This document shows, piece after piece, positions 8,508-14,794 of a DNA stretch of 64,000 nucleotides. The stretch is from Ferruginibacter sp. (GTDB taxonomy: Bacteria; Bacteroidota; Bacteroidia; Chitinophagales; Chitinophagaceae), in NCBI GenBank assembly GCA_028288705.1, contig JAQBNH010000007.1, positions 372,001-436,000 on the forward strand. Direction: 5' to 3'. The notes beneath the pieces are model-generated. The model did no database searches, had not been told where the DNA came from, and was given only the letters and a program-made list of their open reading frames with translations. The first letter of the stretch is position 1; every line of letters starts with the position of its first letter. A program made the position numbers and the translations under genes.

Positions 8508-9167
8508 TTATTTGAACATCAATTTTTTCACCTCTTCCTGGTTATCTTTTTCTTTTTTGAGATCGAACATCGTTCCAAATACATGATCCCATAAAGTACT
8601 GCTGACACCGAAGCCCATATCGGTATGTTTGTAATGGTGCAGATGATGATTGCGCCATAATCCTTTCATCCATTTAAACGGCGGGTTCCAGGCGTGGATC
8701 GCATAATGCATACTTCCATATACAAGATATCCCAGCATAAAGCCCGGGAAAAAAGGGAAGGCAAAATCTCCCAGGATCAATGTAAAAACTAAAAAGAAAA
8801 GCGACGCGATGATCAGGCTGGGCACTGCAGGCATAAATAAACGCTCTTTATCCCGCGGATATTCGTGGTGATTGCCATGCAAAACATAATTGATCCGTTT
8901 GCCACGCTCAGTTTCCGGGTGATGATGGAATGCGAAACGATGTAAAATATATTCCATCAGTGTCCAGAAAAATACACCCCCTAAAAATATCAGGCCTGTA
9001 TTAAGCGTACTGTATCCTTTTACAGAAACACTGTAGTAAGGCAGTAAAATCAATACCGGCAGGTACATCCCCCAGATTACCAGCGGATGTGTTTTAGTGA
9101 GATATTCCAGGTAATTGTTCTTAAACAACTGCGCCTGACCTTTATTATGAATTTTTTGAAATTCCAT
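8508..9167 (-). CDS. fatty acid hydroxylase / sterol desaturase family membrane protein
   Basis: 219 aa; histidine boxes HRFAFHHH, HGNHHEYP, HHLHHY; several TM segments. Confidence 0.88.
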   Translation of the reverse strand: MEFQKIHNKGQAQLFKNNYLEYLTKTHPLVIWGMYLPVLILLPYYSVSVKGYSTLNTGLIFLGGVFFWTLMEYILHRFAFHHHPETERGKRINYVLHGNHHEYPRDKERLFMPAVPSLIIASLFFLVFTLILGDFAFPFFPGFMLGYLVYGSMHYAIHAWNPPFKWMKGLWRNHHLHHYKHTDMGFGVSSTLWDHVFGTMFDLKKEKDNQEEVKKLMFK

Positions 9168-9251: not shown

Positions 9252-10268
9252 ATGAAATTAGTTACTTATTTAAAAGAAGACAGGGATCAACTGGCTATAC
9301 TCGTAAATGACCTCTTGTATGACACCGATATGCTGCATCCAGACCTCCCCGTGAGTATGGCTTTGTTTCTGAATTACTGGGATGATGTGATGCCATTGGC
9401 GCGCGCTGTCGAACAACGGATCAAAGAAGGATTGGTGAGAAATGTGATGGCCCATCCATTTGTAGATGCCAATATTCTCGCACCGGTGCCTCATCCAACG
9501 AGCTGTCGCGACGGATATGCCTTTCGCCAGCATGTGGCAGCCGCGAGGCGTAACCGCAAGGTGGAGATGATCCCGGAATTCGATCAATACCCGATCTTTT
9601 ATTTTACCAACCACAATAGTATCCAGGGCCCTGGAAACGTGTATTGCATGCCCGACCATTTTCAAAAACTTGATTTTGAACTGGAGGCTGCCATCGTTAT
9701 TAATAAGCCCGGCAGGAATATCAAGGCTGCTGAGGCCGATGATTATATCGGTGGATTAATGATCATGAACGACATCAGTGCGCGTCGCCTGCAAATGGAA
9801 GAAATGCTGTTAAACCTGGGGCCGGCAAAAGGAAAGGATTTCTCTACCGCGATCGGGCCGATGCTCGTAACACTGGATGAATTGGAACCATATGAGGTCC
9901 GTGCGAAGGAGAATCATGTAGGCAAAGCCTGGAATCTTAATATGTCCTGCAAGGTAAATGGCGTAGAAGTGAGTAAAGGGAATCTGGCCGATATGGACTG
10001 GACATTTGCGGAAATCATTGAACGTTGCAGTTACGGCGTAACCCTTTATCCCGGTGACGTTATTGGCAGCGGAACGGTTGGCACGGGCTGCTTTTTAGAA
10101 TTAAACGGAACCGGCAAGCTGAATAATCCAGCGTTCCAGGAACAGTGGCTGCAACCAGATGATGTGGTGGAAATGGAAATTGACGGACTTGGGACGTTGA
10201 CCAATACCATGATCCGGGAAGAAGATGATTTTAGTATTTTGGAATTGAAGAAAGGACTCAAAGTTTAA
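9252..10268 (+). CDS. fumarylacetoacetate hydrolase family protein
   Basis: 338 aa; FYFTNHNSIQGPG...LDFELEAAIVI...DISARRLQ...IGSGTVGTGCFLELNGT. Confidence 0.88.
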   Translation: MKLVTYLKEDRDQLAILVNDLLYDTDMLHPDLPVSMALFLNYWDDVMPLARAVEQRIKEGLVRNVMAHPFVDANILAPVPHPTSCRDGYAFRQHVAAARRNRKVEMIPEFDQYPIFYFTNHNSIQGPGNVYCMPDHFQKLDFELEAAIVINKPGRNIKAAEADDYIGGLMIMNDISARRLQMEEMLLNLGPAKGKDFSTAIGPMLVTLDELEPYEVRAKENHVGKAWNLNMSCKVNGVEVSKGNLADMDWTFAEIIERCSYGVTLYPGDVIGSGTVGTGCFLELNGTGKLNNPAFQEQWLQPDDVVEMEIDGLGTLTNTMIREEDDFSILELKKGLKV

Positions 10269-10294
10269 ATTGAACATTACACTATTCCACGCTC

Positions 10295-11176
10295 ATGTAT
10301 ATTGAACTGAAAGATCTTGCTGCAGCAGATGCTCAAAATTATCTGCAGCATGCTGTGGCGCCAAGGCCGATTTGTTTTGCATCCACCATTGACGCGGCAG
10401 GAAATGTGAACCTCAGCCCTTTTAGTTTTTTCAATCTGTTTTCCAGTAACCCACCGATCGTCATTTTTTCTCCGGCAAGACGGGTGCGGGATAATACGAC
10501 AAAACACACTCTGCAAAATGTGGAAGAAGTGAAAGAGGTCGTGATCAATATCGTGGATTTCGATATGGTGCATCAGGCTTCTCTGGCCAGTTGCGAATTT
10601 CCGAAAGGCAGCAATGAATTTGTGAAAGCAGGCTTTACGGCTGAAAAGGCAACATTGGTTCGGCCCCCGATGGTGAAAGAAAGTAAGATCAAACTCGAAT
10701 GCCGCGTGATCGAAATAAAACCATTAGGAACGGAAGGCGGCGCGGGCAACCTCGTGATCGCTGAAGTGCTTTGCATGCACATCGACGACAGCATCCTGGA
10801 TGAAAATAATAAAATCGACCAGCTGAAAATAAACCACGTTGCGCGCCTTGGCGGCGATTGGTATTGTAAGGTTGATGAAAACAATCTGTTCAAAGTTGCT
10901 AAACCAAATACCCGGTTGGGGATAGGAATTGATGCATTGCCGGAAGGGATGCGCAACAGCAGCATTCTCTCGGGCAATCACCTGGGGCAATTGGCGAACG
11001 TGCATGAAATGCCCGTCATACAACCTTCTTTTGAAGACGATAAATTGAAAAATATTATTCAGTATTATTCGATCAATCCCACCGACATGGAAACTGAACT
11101 TCACCGCTACGCTGCTGAACTGCTGAACAACGGCAAAGTGCAGGAAGCATGGCAGGTATTGCTCTCCGTTAACTGA
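10295..11176 (+). CDS. flavin reductase family protein
   Basis: 293 aa; AVAPRPICFASTIDAAGNVNLSPFSFFNLFSSNPPIVIFSP. Confidence 0.88.
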   Translation: MYIELKDLAAADAQNYLQHAVAPRPICFASTIDAAGNVNLSPFSFFNLFSSNPPIVIFSPARRVRDNTTKHTLQNVEEVKEVVINIVDFDMVHQASLASCEFPKGSNEFVKAGFTAEKATLVRPPMVKESKIKLECRVIEIKPLGTEGGAGNLVIAEVLCMHIDDSILDENNKIDQLKINHVARLGGDWYCKVDENNLFKVAKPNTRLGIGIDALPEGMRNSSILSGNHLGQLANVHEMPVIQPSFEDDKLKNIIQYYSINPTDMETELHRYAAELLNNGKVQEAWQVLLSVN

Positions 11177-11401: not shown

Positions 11402-11812
11402 ATGAGGTCATTGCTTTTGGTTGTATTTTATATTTCCTTCGTTACGGTATCCTTCTGCCAGGAACCTGTAAAGCCGCCAAAAAATACCGCTGCCTATTAC
11501 ATGCAAAAAAGCCGTACTAAAAAAGCCACCGGCTGGGTATTGACAGGAGTAGGCATAGGATTTCTCATTGGTGCAGCCACACATGATTATGACCAGATCC
11601 TGACGGATAAAAAACCGCCGACTGCAGTGTATATAACAGGCGCCGTTTTAATTGCAACGGGCATCGCAATTTTGGTAAGTGGTTCCCGCGATCGTAAAAA
11701 AGCAGAAACGCTTTTGGTAAGGGTTTACCATGAACCAATCCAGGGTTTTGCTTTTTCGGGTAAAGCACCCGGCGCTATTACCGCTCTGGGATTACGTTTC
11801 AATTTGCATTGA
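11402..11812 (+). CDS. small secreted/membrane hypothetical protein
   Basis: Signal-like MRSLLLVVFYISFVTVSFCQ then two hydrophobic segments; start 11402 chosen over 11366. Confidence 0.6.
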   Translation: MRSLLLVVFYISFVTVSFCQEPVKPPKNTAAYYMQKSRTKKATGWVLTGVGIGFLIGAATHDYDQILTDKKPPTAVYITGAVLIATGIAILVSGSRDRKKAETLLVRVYHEPIQGFAFSGKAPGAITALGLRFNLH

Positions 11813-11863
11813 ACATTGCATTCTCTTCGATCTGATCAGATTTTAACGATTAAAAATAATCCC

Positions 11864-13534
11864 ATGTCGTACTTCCAACAATACAGCACACGATTGCTGG
11901 CAGGATTTTTCCTGGCCACATCCGCTTTTGCCTGTCACAATTATTATAAGGTGGCCGGAAAATCAGCTTTGAATAACCAACAAAAATCAGCCACCGTTGA
12001 CAGCCTGAACGGACAGTCGAAGTATTTTGTCCTGCGTAATGGCGACCAGTCTTTCCATATTAGAAACCTGCTGATCTCGGAGGATAAAAAAAATCTCAGC
12101 TTCCAGTTAGATTCCCTGCAGGTCTCCCATCAGCTCCATTTAAACAATGGCAGAAAGGGAAGGCAGATGTTTAAGCTGAATAATGAACTGGATGCAGGGG
12201 TGATCAGGGAAGTCCATTTTTATATCAGCCCGGATAGTAGCATTGCCAGGCTACAATCCTATACGATCCCGCTGGAAAAAATCCAGAAGATAGAGATCCT
12301 GGAAAAAGACAAACGACGCACAACCAACAGTTATGTTATTGGCGCAATTGGCTATACGTTGGGCGCTGCGGTTTTAGTTGGGATCATCGTTGCGGCAACC
12401 AAAAGCTCCTGCCCGTTTGTGAGCGCCTATGATGGAAATGAATTTACACTGCAGGGCGAAATTTATGGCGGTGCCATCTACCCGCAACTCGCCAGGCATG
12501 ATTACATCCCGTTACGAATGGTAGCGCGATCAGGCGGCACGCTTCAATTAAAAATCAGCAATGAATTACAGGAGAAACAATTTACAGATATTGCCGAGTT
12601 ATGGGTGATCAGTCACCCAAAAAACGTCAGGGTTTTCTCAGATGAAAAAGGAAATCTATTTAGTATCAGCCAGGCAGAAACGCCGCTTTCCGCAAGGTTG
12701 AATCAACATACCGACGTAACCAAATCGCTCTTACAGGCAAACGACAATGATATTTTGCATATGGATGATACAACTGCCGTTCAGGCGAAGAACGAGATCG
12801 CACTTGCTTTTAAAAAACCGGCAGATGCGGTAGCGGGCAGGCTGGTGTTAACGCTCAAAAATTCTTATTTCCTCGACCTGTTATATAGTGAACTCGCTAA
12901 AGGCTTTGGCTCGTACTATGATAATTATTTAAGGCAGCAGAAAAGCAAACCCGCGGGAGAATTGATAAAATGGACGAGGGAGCAACAGATTCCGTTGGAT
13001 GTTTCTGTACGGATCAATCATGAATGGAAAAGAATTTCCGACATCAGTACGATTGGTCCGCTCGCCAGCCGCACGATCGTTGTGCCGCTCGAATTGGAGC
13101 CCGGAACAGCAGTTGCCGAGGTTAAATTGTCCAGCGGATTTATGTTTTGGGAAATCGATTATGCTGCGATGGATTATTCCGGGGGAAATGAATTCAGCCT
13201 GAAAAAATTACAGCCGCAGGTTGCTACAGATGAGGCCGGAAACGATGTTCTTCCTTCACTGCTTAAAGATGACCTGCAGTATTTGGCTCAACCCAATATC
13301 GGGAATACCGCCACGATCAGTTACCAATATATTCCTACAACAACCAGCGCAGAGACAGAAACATTTATTCTTCATACCAAAGGCTATTACGAACATATCC
13401 GCAACTTCAAAAACAAACCCGATATCGGTTTCCTGCAACAATTTAAAAAGCCAAATGCCTTTCCCTTATTTGGAATGGAGCTGTATAAGAAAATGCAAAA
13501 GGAACAACTGCAAACATTAGCGAAAGCAGAATAG
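11864..13534 (+). CDS. large exported hypothetical protein
   Basis: Likely start MSYFQQYSTRLLAGFFLATSAFACHNYYK; internal TM then CPFVSAYDGNEFTLQGEIYGGAIYPQLARHDYIPL. Confidence 0.65.
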   Translation: MSYFQQYSTRLLAGFFLATSAFACHNYYKVAGKSALNNQQKSATVDSLNGQSKYFVLRNGDQSFHIRNLLISEDKKNLSFQLDSLQVSHQLHLNNGRKGRQMFKLNNELDAGVIREVHFYISPDSSIARLQSYTIPLEKIQKIEILEKDKRRTTNSYVIGAIGYTLGAAVLVGIIVAATKSSCPFVSAYDGNEFTLQGEIYGGAIYPQLARHDYIPLRMVARSGGTLQLKISNELQEKQFTDIAELWVISHPKNVRVFSDEKGNLFSISQAETPLSARLNQHTDVTKSLLQANDNDILHMDDTTAVQAKNEIALAFKKPADAVAGRLVLTLKNSYFLDLLYSELAKGFGSYYDNYLRQQKSKPAGELIKWTREQQIPLDVSVRINHEWKRISDISTIGPLASRTIVVPLELEPGTAVAEVKLSSGFMFWEIDYAAMDYSGGNEFSLKKLQPQVATDEAGNDVLPSLLKDDLQYLAQPNIGNTATISYQYIPTTTSAETETFILHTKGYYEHIRNFKNKPDIGFLQQFKKPNAFPLFGMELYKKMQKEQLQTLAKAE

Positions 13535-13570
13535 AAACCAATCATCAACGTAAACGTATAAACGAACAAT

Positions 13571-14794
13571 ATGGAAACCGTAGCAAAAACCTCAGTTGTT
13601 TTCATTCCGACTAAGCAAACCCCTGCAGTAACACAAATTAAAGCTGCTGCCCCCAACTATAAGCCCGGCAGATTCGAAACAGCCATCACGTGGTGGCGAA
13701 TTAAAACGCGCATATTTTTCTTTGCCTGCATCATCCTGAAAAAGCCTCAAACCGTGATCGCAACATTTAAAAAGATGATCTCCCTTCGGAACAATGTGTG
13801 GGGAGGAGACCTCAAAAAATTACATAAGATCGACGGTAAATATTATTTCAACCAATATACACCAGGCTGGCCATCCAGGGCATACGATGAGCTCATCAAA
13901 GGCGAACTGCGCCGGCAGGCTGATGGCAACCGTTCCGAAAAATTGTCCTTCATCTTTTTAGCGATCACCCGAAAATGCCCGATGCGTTGCGAGCACTGTT
14001 TTGAATGGGATAACCTTAATCAAAAAGAATCTTTTACAAAGGAGGATCTTTTTACCGTTGTAGATATGTATCAGCGTGAGGGCGTGCTGCAAATTCATTT
14101 TAGCGGAGGTGAGCCAATGGCAAGATTTAAGGATTTACTTCCGCTGATCCGCCACGCGTCAAAAAAGACCGAATGCTGGGTACTGAGTTCAGGATTTAAT
14201 TTCACTGAAAAGAATGCCGGCCTATTAAAAGAAGCCGGTTGCAAAGGTGTCGTGATCAGCATCGACCATTATATCGAAGAACTGCACAATTTATTCCGTG
14301 GCAACCCGGGTGCGTTTGCCGGCGCCGTACAGGCCGTTGCTGCTGCGCGGAAAGCCGGTATGGTAACATCGCTGAGCGTTTGTGTAACCAAAGCGTTTCT
14401 TGATGGCCACCATCTCGATCCGTATATGGCATTTGCTAAAAATCTCGGCGTACAGTTCGTGCAGGTGCTGGAACCCAGGTCTGTCGGCCATTATGAAGGC
14501 CAGGCTGTACAACTGGAAGAAAAACATATCAGTATGCTGGAAACAGCATTTAAAAAATTCAATCACTCAGCCGGGTATACAGATTATCCAACGATGTTGT
14601 ATCACGGTTATCACCAAAGACGCGTTGGCTGTTTTTCCGGCAGCCGAAGTGTGTATATTGATTCTGGAGGCGATGTGCATGCCTGCCCGTTTTGCCACAC
14701 AAAGTCATACAATATTATAGACCTGATCAGGAAGCAGGTGACGGCTTTGCCTGTGAAGGAAAACAGTTGCCCTCAGTTCAGCAGGATTGCATGA
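13571..14794 (+). CDS. radical SAM enzyme with SPASM/twitch-like C-terminus
   Basis: CPMRCEHC (CxxxCxxC), HFSGGEPMARF, C-terminal GCFSG...GGDVHACPFC...C cysteine cluster. Confidence 0.88.
   Translation: METVAKTSVVFIPTKQTPAVTQIKAAAPNYKPGRFETAITWWRIKTRIFFFACIILKKPQTVIATFKKMISLRNNVWGGDLKKLHKIDGKYYFNQYTPGWPSRAYDELIKGELRRQADGNRSEKLSFIFLAITRKCPMRCEHCFEWDNLNQKESFTKEDLFTVVDMYQREGVLQIHFSGGEPMARFKDLLPLIRHASKKTECWVLSSGFNFTEKNAGLLKEAGCKGVVISIDHYIEELHNLFRGNPGAFAGAVQAVAAARKAGMVTSLSVCVTKAFLDGHHLDPYMAFAKNLGVQFVQVLEPRSVGHYEGQAVQLEEKHISMLETAFKKFNHSAGYTDYPTMLYHGYHQRRVGCFSGSRSVYIDSGGDVHACPFCHTKSYNIIDLIRKQVTALPVKENSCPQFSRIA

Follow-up and report, generated by a model that had tools for sequence, protein, structure and literature searches.

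Two adjacent genes in a Ferruginibacter genome, one encoding a predicted lipoprotein (P0002) and the other a radical SAM enzyme (P0003), form a conserved pair that is tentatively interpreted here as a lipid-tailoring module. The pair is found across Bacteroidota, although no curated family accommodates either protein. The two genes travel together and often lie beside lipid-modifying genes, which points to a probably undescribed two-gene system for membrane lipids rather than for peptides. If this reading is true, the pair would represent a new enzyme class together with a carrier for bacterial membrane lipid chemistry. If P0002 is instead the substrate of P0003, the pair would represent a case in which a large lipoprotein carries a modification installed by radical chemistry. 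No description of the pair was found in the literature on radical SAM enzymes with lipoproteins, sphingolipids, sulfonolipids, or fatty-acid hydroxylases.

Locus organization

Three co-oriented ORFs (P0001, P0002, and P0003) are present at positions 11402-14794 of the window, the whole analyzed stretch of 64,000 nucleotides from contig JAQBNH010000007.1. A preliminary description of this DNA, made from its letters and ORFs, had treated them as an uncharacterised three-gene unit. The uncharacterised combination of an enzyme with an exported protein does exist, but P0001 has no part in it. P0001 (11402..11812, + strand) is a small protein of 136 aa with two TM-like stretches and is probably a bystander. 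A blastp search among the fetched loci recovered a single homolog (L059; 3.7e-6), and L053 encodes a protein resembling it. Upstream of the pair, the slot is taken by small envelope proteins that are unrelated and vary by lineage. As P0001 is not conserved, a three-gene unit was rejected. A conserved genomic island was likewise rejected, since the genes outside P0002-P0003 vary by lineage. The conserved unit thus consists of two genes, P0002 and P0003, each present in one copy in the host genome. FAA-hydrolase and flavin-reductase-like genes lie upstream of the unit at 9252-11176 of the window, as they do in several other Chitinophagaceae loci.

Pairing and distribution

When P0003 was used to scan 84,980 species genomes, 79 loci were recovered, nearly all of them in Bacteroidota and spread over Chitinophagaceae, Hymenobacter, Cyclobacteriaceae, Saprospiraceae, Flavobacteriales, and others. 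Cultured isolates with the pair include members of Flavisolibacter, Hymenobacter, Niastella, and Saonia. A P0002 homolog occurs in 75 of the 79 enzyme loci, almost always directly upstream, with an intergenic gap mostly between -17 and +20 nt (negative values denoting overlap). The preliminary description had held that enzymes routinely occurring without their upstream partner would speak against the unit. This is not the case for P0002, as the remaining four loci are at a contig end or carry a truncated or frame-split enzyme: L112 lies at a contig edge, L134 is a short contig that ends within the enzyme, the enzyme of L133 is truncated to 199 aa, and that of L128 (L128:5212-6564), from a MAG labeled Gammaproteobacteria, is split over two frames. 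Smaller samples agree with the scan. A strong full-length enzyme match was obtained in 11 of 200 genomes of the host family, all 11 with P0002, and a strong match in nine of 396 sampled Bacteroidota genomes, with an adjacent P0002 in every one.

The reverse situation, an exported protein common in genomes lacking the enzyme, had also been named as evidence against the unit. Strong P0002 homologs are almost confined to enzyme-bearing genomes, the exceptions being G198 and G333, but the P0002 superfamily also has a more distant branch that lacks the enzyme and is fairly common. The existence of this branch indicates that the C-terminal domain of P0002 does not itself depend on the enzyme. P0002 and P0003 are nonetheless conserved together far beyond chance. 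Across 74 loci, pairwise distances among P0002 homologs and among enzyme homologs have a correlation of 0.88, against a maximum of 0.11 in 1000 permutations, though part of this correlation is due to shared descent. In L055-L057 the two genes stand in the opposite order, and in L051 and L053 they are separated by additional genes. What is left in G050 (L059:9677-10363) is a P0001-type gene and, after it, a 61-aa remainder of the enzyme tail; P0002 and all other parts of the enzyme are missing.

Several variants of the locus were also noted. The pair occurs twice in tandem at L122:8261-15979, the copies being separated by a small gene of about 98 aa. Partial P0002-like ORFs lie 3′ of complete pairs at L062:11610-12158 (182 aa) and L106:5312-5671 (120 aa). 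Distant relatives of the enzyme stand directly 5′ of a KAS III-like gene and without P0002 in L187 and L188, while those of L194 and L202 stand three genes 5′ of a 'GTGAGGATAAKEL' oxidoreductase-like gene; a small gene (about 180-200 aa) lies between them.

The radical SAM enzyme

P0003 (13571..14794, + strand) is an enzyme of 407 aa characterized here through Pfam, alignment, and an AF2 model. It matches the Pfam family Radical_SAM (PF04055) with 73.6 bits against a cut-off of 29.5 (2.8e-20), and its 74 NCBIfam matches are weak superfamily matches, the best reaching 82.7 bits against a cut-off of 400. P0003 is therefore a member of the radical SAM superfamily without any fitting curated family. 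The preliminary description had looked to such a profile search for a subfamily, and only the superfamily level was reached, no subfamily scoring above its cut-off.

In an alignment of 82 enzyme sequences, the CxxxCxxC cluster motif (C136, C140, and C143; 13976..13999, + strand), a GGEP motif, and C372 are invariant, while C271, C354, C375, and C400 are near-invariant. SPASM domains contain seven Cys and two auxiliary clusters, whereas the twitch domain is a truncated SPASM with one auxiliary 4Fe-4S cluster. The C-terminal Cys of P0003 (C354, C372, C375, and C400; 14630..14770, + strand) are 99-100% conserved and are spaced as C354-x12-G-x4-C372-x2-C375...C400. This pattern fits twitch, with a predicted single, fully Cys-ligated auxiliary cluster, rather than the seven-Cys SPASM. 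The SPASM profile (PF13186) scores 15.7 bits, below its cut-off of 21.5. Of the SPASM/twitch-like assignment made at first, the CxxxCxxC motif and the twitch-like Cys thus stand, and the full SPASM does not.

The AF2 model of P0003 (pLDDT 89.4) has its best fold match in SkfB (E 9e-15), with BlsE and MoaA also among the best and further matches to SuiB, PqqE, viperin, and AnSME (4k38, 7e-9). The radical SAM superfamily is marked by the CxxxCxxC motif and a partial TIM barrel, and these fold matches agree with the membership of P0003. Since the matches span peptide maturases and small-molecule enzymes, the substrate cannot be deduced from the fold.

The N-terminus of P0003 forms a predicted basic amphipathic helical hairpin at residues 34-77 (13670..13801, + strand), with helices at 34-56 and 59-77 modeled at a pLDDT of about 95. 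The hairpin has 100% occupancy across homologs and carries a charge of about +0.2 per residue. The N-terminus is moderately hydrophobic, with a median best 19-aa KD of 1.27 among homologs. Judging from these features, the hairpin is probably an interfacial membrane anchor, or 'membrane foot'. The basic N-terminus, which the preliminary description had considered as a possible part of an unusual maturation system, is not supported as a substrate, being a confidently modeled, charged hairpin present in all homologs.

The lipoprotein partner

P0002 (11864..13534, + strand) is a predicted lipoprotein of 556 aa, defined by its ORF, an alignment of 79 sequences, its pairing with the enzyme, and an AF2 model (pLDDT 91.9). 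The weak lipobox remarked upon in the preliminary description is present as SAFAC, and its Cys (Cys24; 11933..11935, + strand) is invariant in 79/79 homologs and in 19/19 enzyme-less relatives, preceded by G, S, or A in nearly all homologs. With a signal peptide, a lipobox, and an invariant +1 Cys, P0002 has the predicted features of a lipoprotein. Surface-exported lipoproteins of Bacteroidota carry an acidic export signal after the +1 Cys. Homologs of P0002 average 0.19 acidic residues at positions +2 to +8 and so lack this signal, making surface export unlikely.

The internal TM segment reported at the outset is likewise found, as a TM-like, glycine-rich segment at residues 158-176 (12335..12391, + strand; 19-aa mean KD 2.33). 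In 98.7% of enzyme-linked homologs this segment has a KD of at least 1.6, and it is missing in L096. There, the P0002 homolog (L096:7676-9220) has its N-terminal part and TM-like segment swapped for another domain but keeps the lipobox and the C-terminal domain. This swap suggests that the C-terminal domain lies outside the cytoplasm.

The C-terminal domain itself is a predicted beta-sandwich 'CPF..DG' domain at residues about 183-511 (12410..13396, + strand), delimited by alignment and the AF2 model. It carries a CPFVSAYDG...GGAIYP block in which Cys183-Pro184 is 99-100% conserved over the 79 sequences. The domain is shared with an enzyme-less lipoprotein family of about 530 aa, and parts of it are also found in FG-GAP proteins such as that of L166. 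Searches of P0002 against Pfam and NCBIfam returned no relevant match. A Foldseek comparison of the model with the PDB gave no whole-length match and recognized no lipid-binding fold. The partial beta-sandwich matches had a TM below 0.2 by query length, and no function was adopted from them.

Lipid genes beside the pair

The 98 operonic neighbors of the pair were compared with 150 control genes taken from these loci. Two Pfam families, FA_hydroxylase and FA_desaturase, top the neighbor counts with six hits each. Four of the 12 hits are in genes added by hand at L114 and L195, and without those genes the counts drop to five and three, respectively. Both families fall outside the top 25 Pfam families of the controls. 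A whole-genome background was drawn from 15 pair-bearing genomes, which together hold 69 FA_hydroxylase and 70 FA_desaturase copies. Eight of these copies are found no more than 3 kb from the pair, against 0.24 expected (Poisson about 2e-10), distributed over six genomes (one each in G000, G046, G064, and G175, and two each in G312 and G350). The count leaves out G376 and G562, which also bear the pair; the stretches read in these two genomes contain neither family next to it.

Other neighbors are also consistent with lipid chemistry in particular lineages. In L053, the order is a P0001-type gene, P0002, a fatty-acid desaturase, an oxoamine synthase, a 398-aa protein, a sulfotransferase, and the enzyme. 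Assignment of the oxoamine synthase as serine palmitoyltransferase was rejected at 306 bits against a cut-off of 640, and it is called an oxoamine synthase only. A KAS III-like protein is encoded near the pair in L096 and L100. In L080 and L093, a fusion of AMP-ligase, class III aminotransferase, and dehydrogenase-like parts (about 1470-1510 aa) lies 3′ of the enzyme and is followed by a DUF3419 protein. The lipid enzymes differ by lineage, and about 60 of the 75 pair loci have none directly attached. In the window, the nearest FA_hydroxylase (8508-9167, - strand; Pfam 67 bits) is encoded on the strand opposite P0002, at a distance of 2.7 kb. Its homologs in L061 and L062 are located further away.

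Proposed function and alternatives

A lipid-tailoring function for the pair is favored here, if tentatively. This reading builds on features taken from the sequence, namely the obligate pairing, the invariant lipobox, the conserved membrane hairpin, the cluster motifs, and the enrichment of lipid genes. P0003 would be held at the cytoplasmic face of the inner membrane by its basic amphipathic N-terminal hairpin. SAM and the C136/C140/C143 cluster would generate a 5′-deoxyadenosyl radical, which would abstract hydrogen from a lipid of the acyl or sphingoid type, a substrate suggested by the neighbor-gene statistics. The auxiliary cluster (C354/C372/C375/C400) may then accept a second electron, giving a two-electron oxidation as in BtrN, either a dehydrogenation or an alcohol oxidation; this reaction is suggested by the Cys pattern of the cluster. 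In several lineages, the same lipid might also be acted on by fatty-acid hydroxylases, desaturases, an oxoamine synthase, or sulfotransferases. P0002 would be exported, lipidated at Cys24, and retained at the envelope, where its beta-sandwich domain may bind, place, or move the modified lipid. The fuller proposal, that the pair constitutes a new Bacteroidota pathway of radical SAM lipid oxidation in which an obligate lipoprotein receives the modified lipid at the envelope, the modification itself being undescribed, is more doubtful still. Several points count against a lipid-tailoring function: the peptide maturases SkfB and SuiB are among the closest fold matches of P0003, next to small-molecule enzymes; most pair loci, the window included, lack a directly attached lipid enzyme; those lipid enzymes that do occur are not the same in every lineage; and the search with P0002 recognized no lipid-binding fold.

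The main rival is that P0003 modifies P0002 in the cytoplasm prior to Sec export, in the manner of AnSME and sulfatases, the modified residue being needed for function in the envelope. The near-obligate 1:1 pairing, translational coupling, coevolution, and co-loss in G050 would all agree with an enzyme and its protein substrate, and AnSME (4k38) is among the structural matches of P0003. The residues of P0002 are less accommodating. Relative to 19 enzyme-less relatives, G203, R211, Q239, Q359, R403, G425, F428, and E430 are near-invariant only in enzyme-linked P0002, Q239 being replaced by His in 17/19 of the relatives. A target could be included among G203, R211, Q239, R403, G425, F428, and E430, but Cys, Ser, Thr, and Tyr are absent from the linked-only positions, and R211, Q239, R403, and E430 would more readily make up a binding site than a modification site. 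Cys183 was rejected as the radical target because it is equally conserved in the 19 enzyme-less relatives. In addition, the P0002 model is confidently folded throughout, without an exposed conserved tail, and modification of P0002 leaves the enrichment of lipid genes unexplained. On balance, P0002 as the substrate is considered unlikely.

It is less probable again that the pair tailors some other small molecule of the envelope, such as a polyketide, sugar, or cofactor, with lipid genes attached as fellow envelope functions. Enzymes of the MoaA, BlsE, and PqqE type have small-molecule substrates, and the neighbors vary from lineage to lineage as such a role would allow, but the enrichment is specific to fatty-acid hydroxylases, desaturases, and acyl enzymes. 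Least of all is P0003 expected to be a RiPP-like peptide maturase with a precursor encoded elsewhere or too short and variable to detect: SkfB, its best fold match, is a RiPP maturase and many peptide maturases appear among its distant NCBIfam matches, but every one of those scores is far under cut-off, the conserved partner is a protein of 556 aa, and neither a peptidase nor an exporter is conserved nearby. A RiPP cassette was rejected, as none of the 1053 candidate short ORFs near the pair is conserved across loci. The preliminary description had itself remarked that no RiPP precursor, peptidase, or exporter was evident, which agrees with the wider set of loci, and its suggestion of peptide maturation gives way before neighbors that are lipid enzymes.

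Comparison with known systems

The nearest named arrangement to the proposed lipid-tailoring pair is the rSAM/lipoprotein system of NCBIfam (TIGR04133/TIGR04134), which likewise combines a radical SAM enzyme with a lipoprotein. P0003 is only a distant superfamily match to TIGR04133 (56.8 bits, cut-off 425), and P0002, at 556 aa, has no match to the TIGR04134 model of 150 positions. A TIGR04134 search of the host genome gave no match, and the same search also gave none in any control genome.

BtrN-type twitch dehydrogenases combine a radical SAM core with one four-Cys auxiliary site, an arrangement predicted for P0003 as well. In BtrN, the twitch auxiliary cluster is fully ligated by four Cys and the reaction is a two-electron oxidation (PMC9012708). 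P0003 differs from BtrN, a soluble enzyme with an aminocyclitol as substrate, in its predicted membrane hairpin and its obligate lipoprotein partner. The RiPP maturases SkfB and SuiB, as well as AnSME, share the fold of the catalytic domain with P0003. In contrast to them, the pair has no precursor gene, and P0003 lacks the seven-Cys SPASM and begins with a basic helical hairpin.

The tetraether synthase Tes and the GMGT synthase Gms are established examples of radical chemistry on lipid chains (PMC9433317; PMC11186832). Both are archaeal enzymes and, to our knowledge, neither has a lipoprotein partner.

For P0002, the comparison lies with FG-GAP/UnbV_ASPIC proteins of Bacteroidota, which share parts of its C-terminal domain in the form of a C-terminal 'CPFLYTWDG' domain. 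Unlike P0002, these proteins are about 1150 aa long, contain FG-GAP repeats, and have no linked enzyme. One FG-GAP protein, at L166:1-2817, carries a 'CPFLYTWNG' domain as in P0002, and many Bacteroidota proteins about 1150 aa long contain this domain too.
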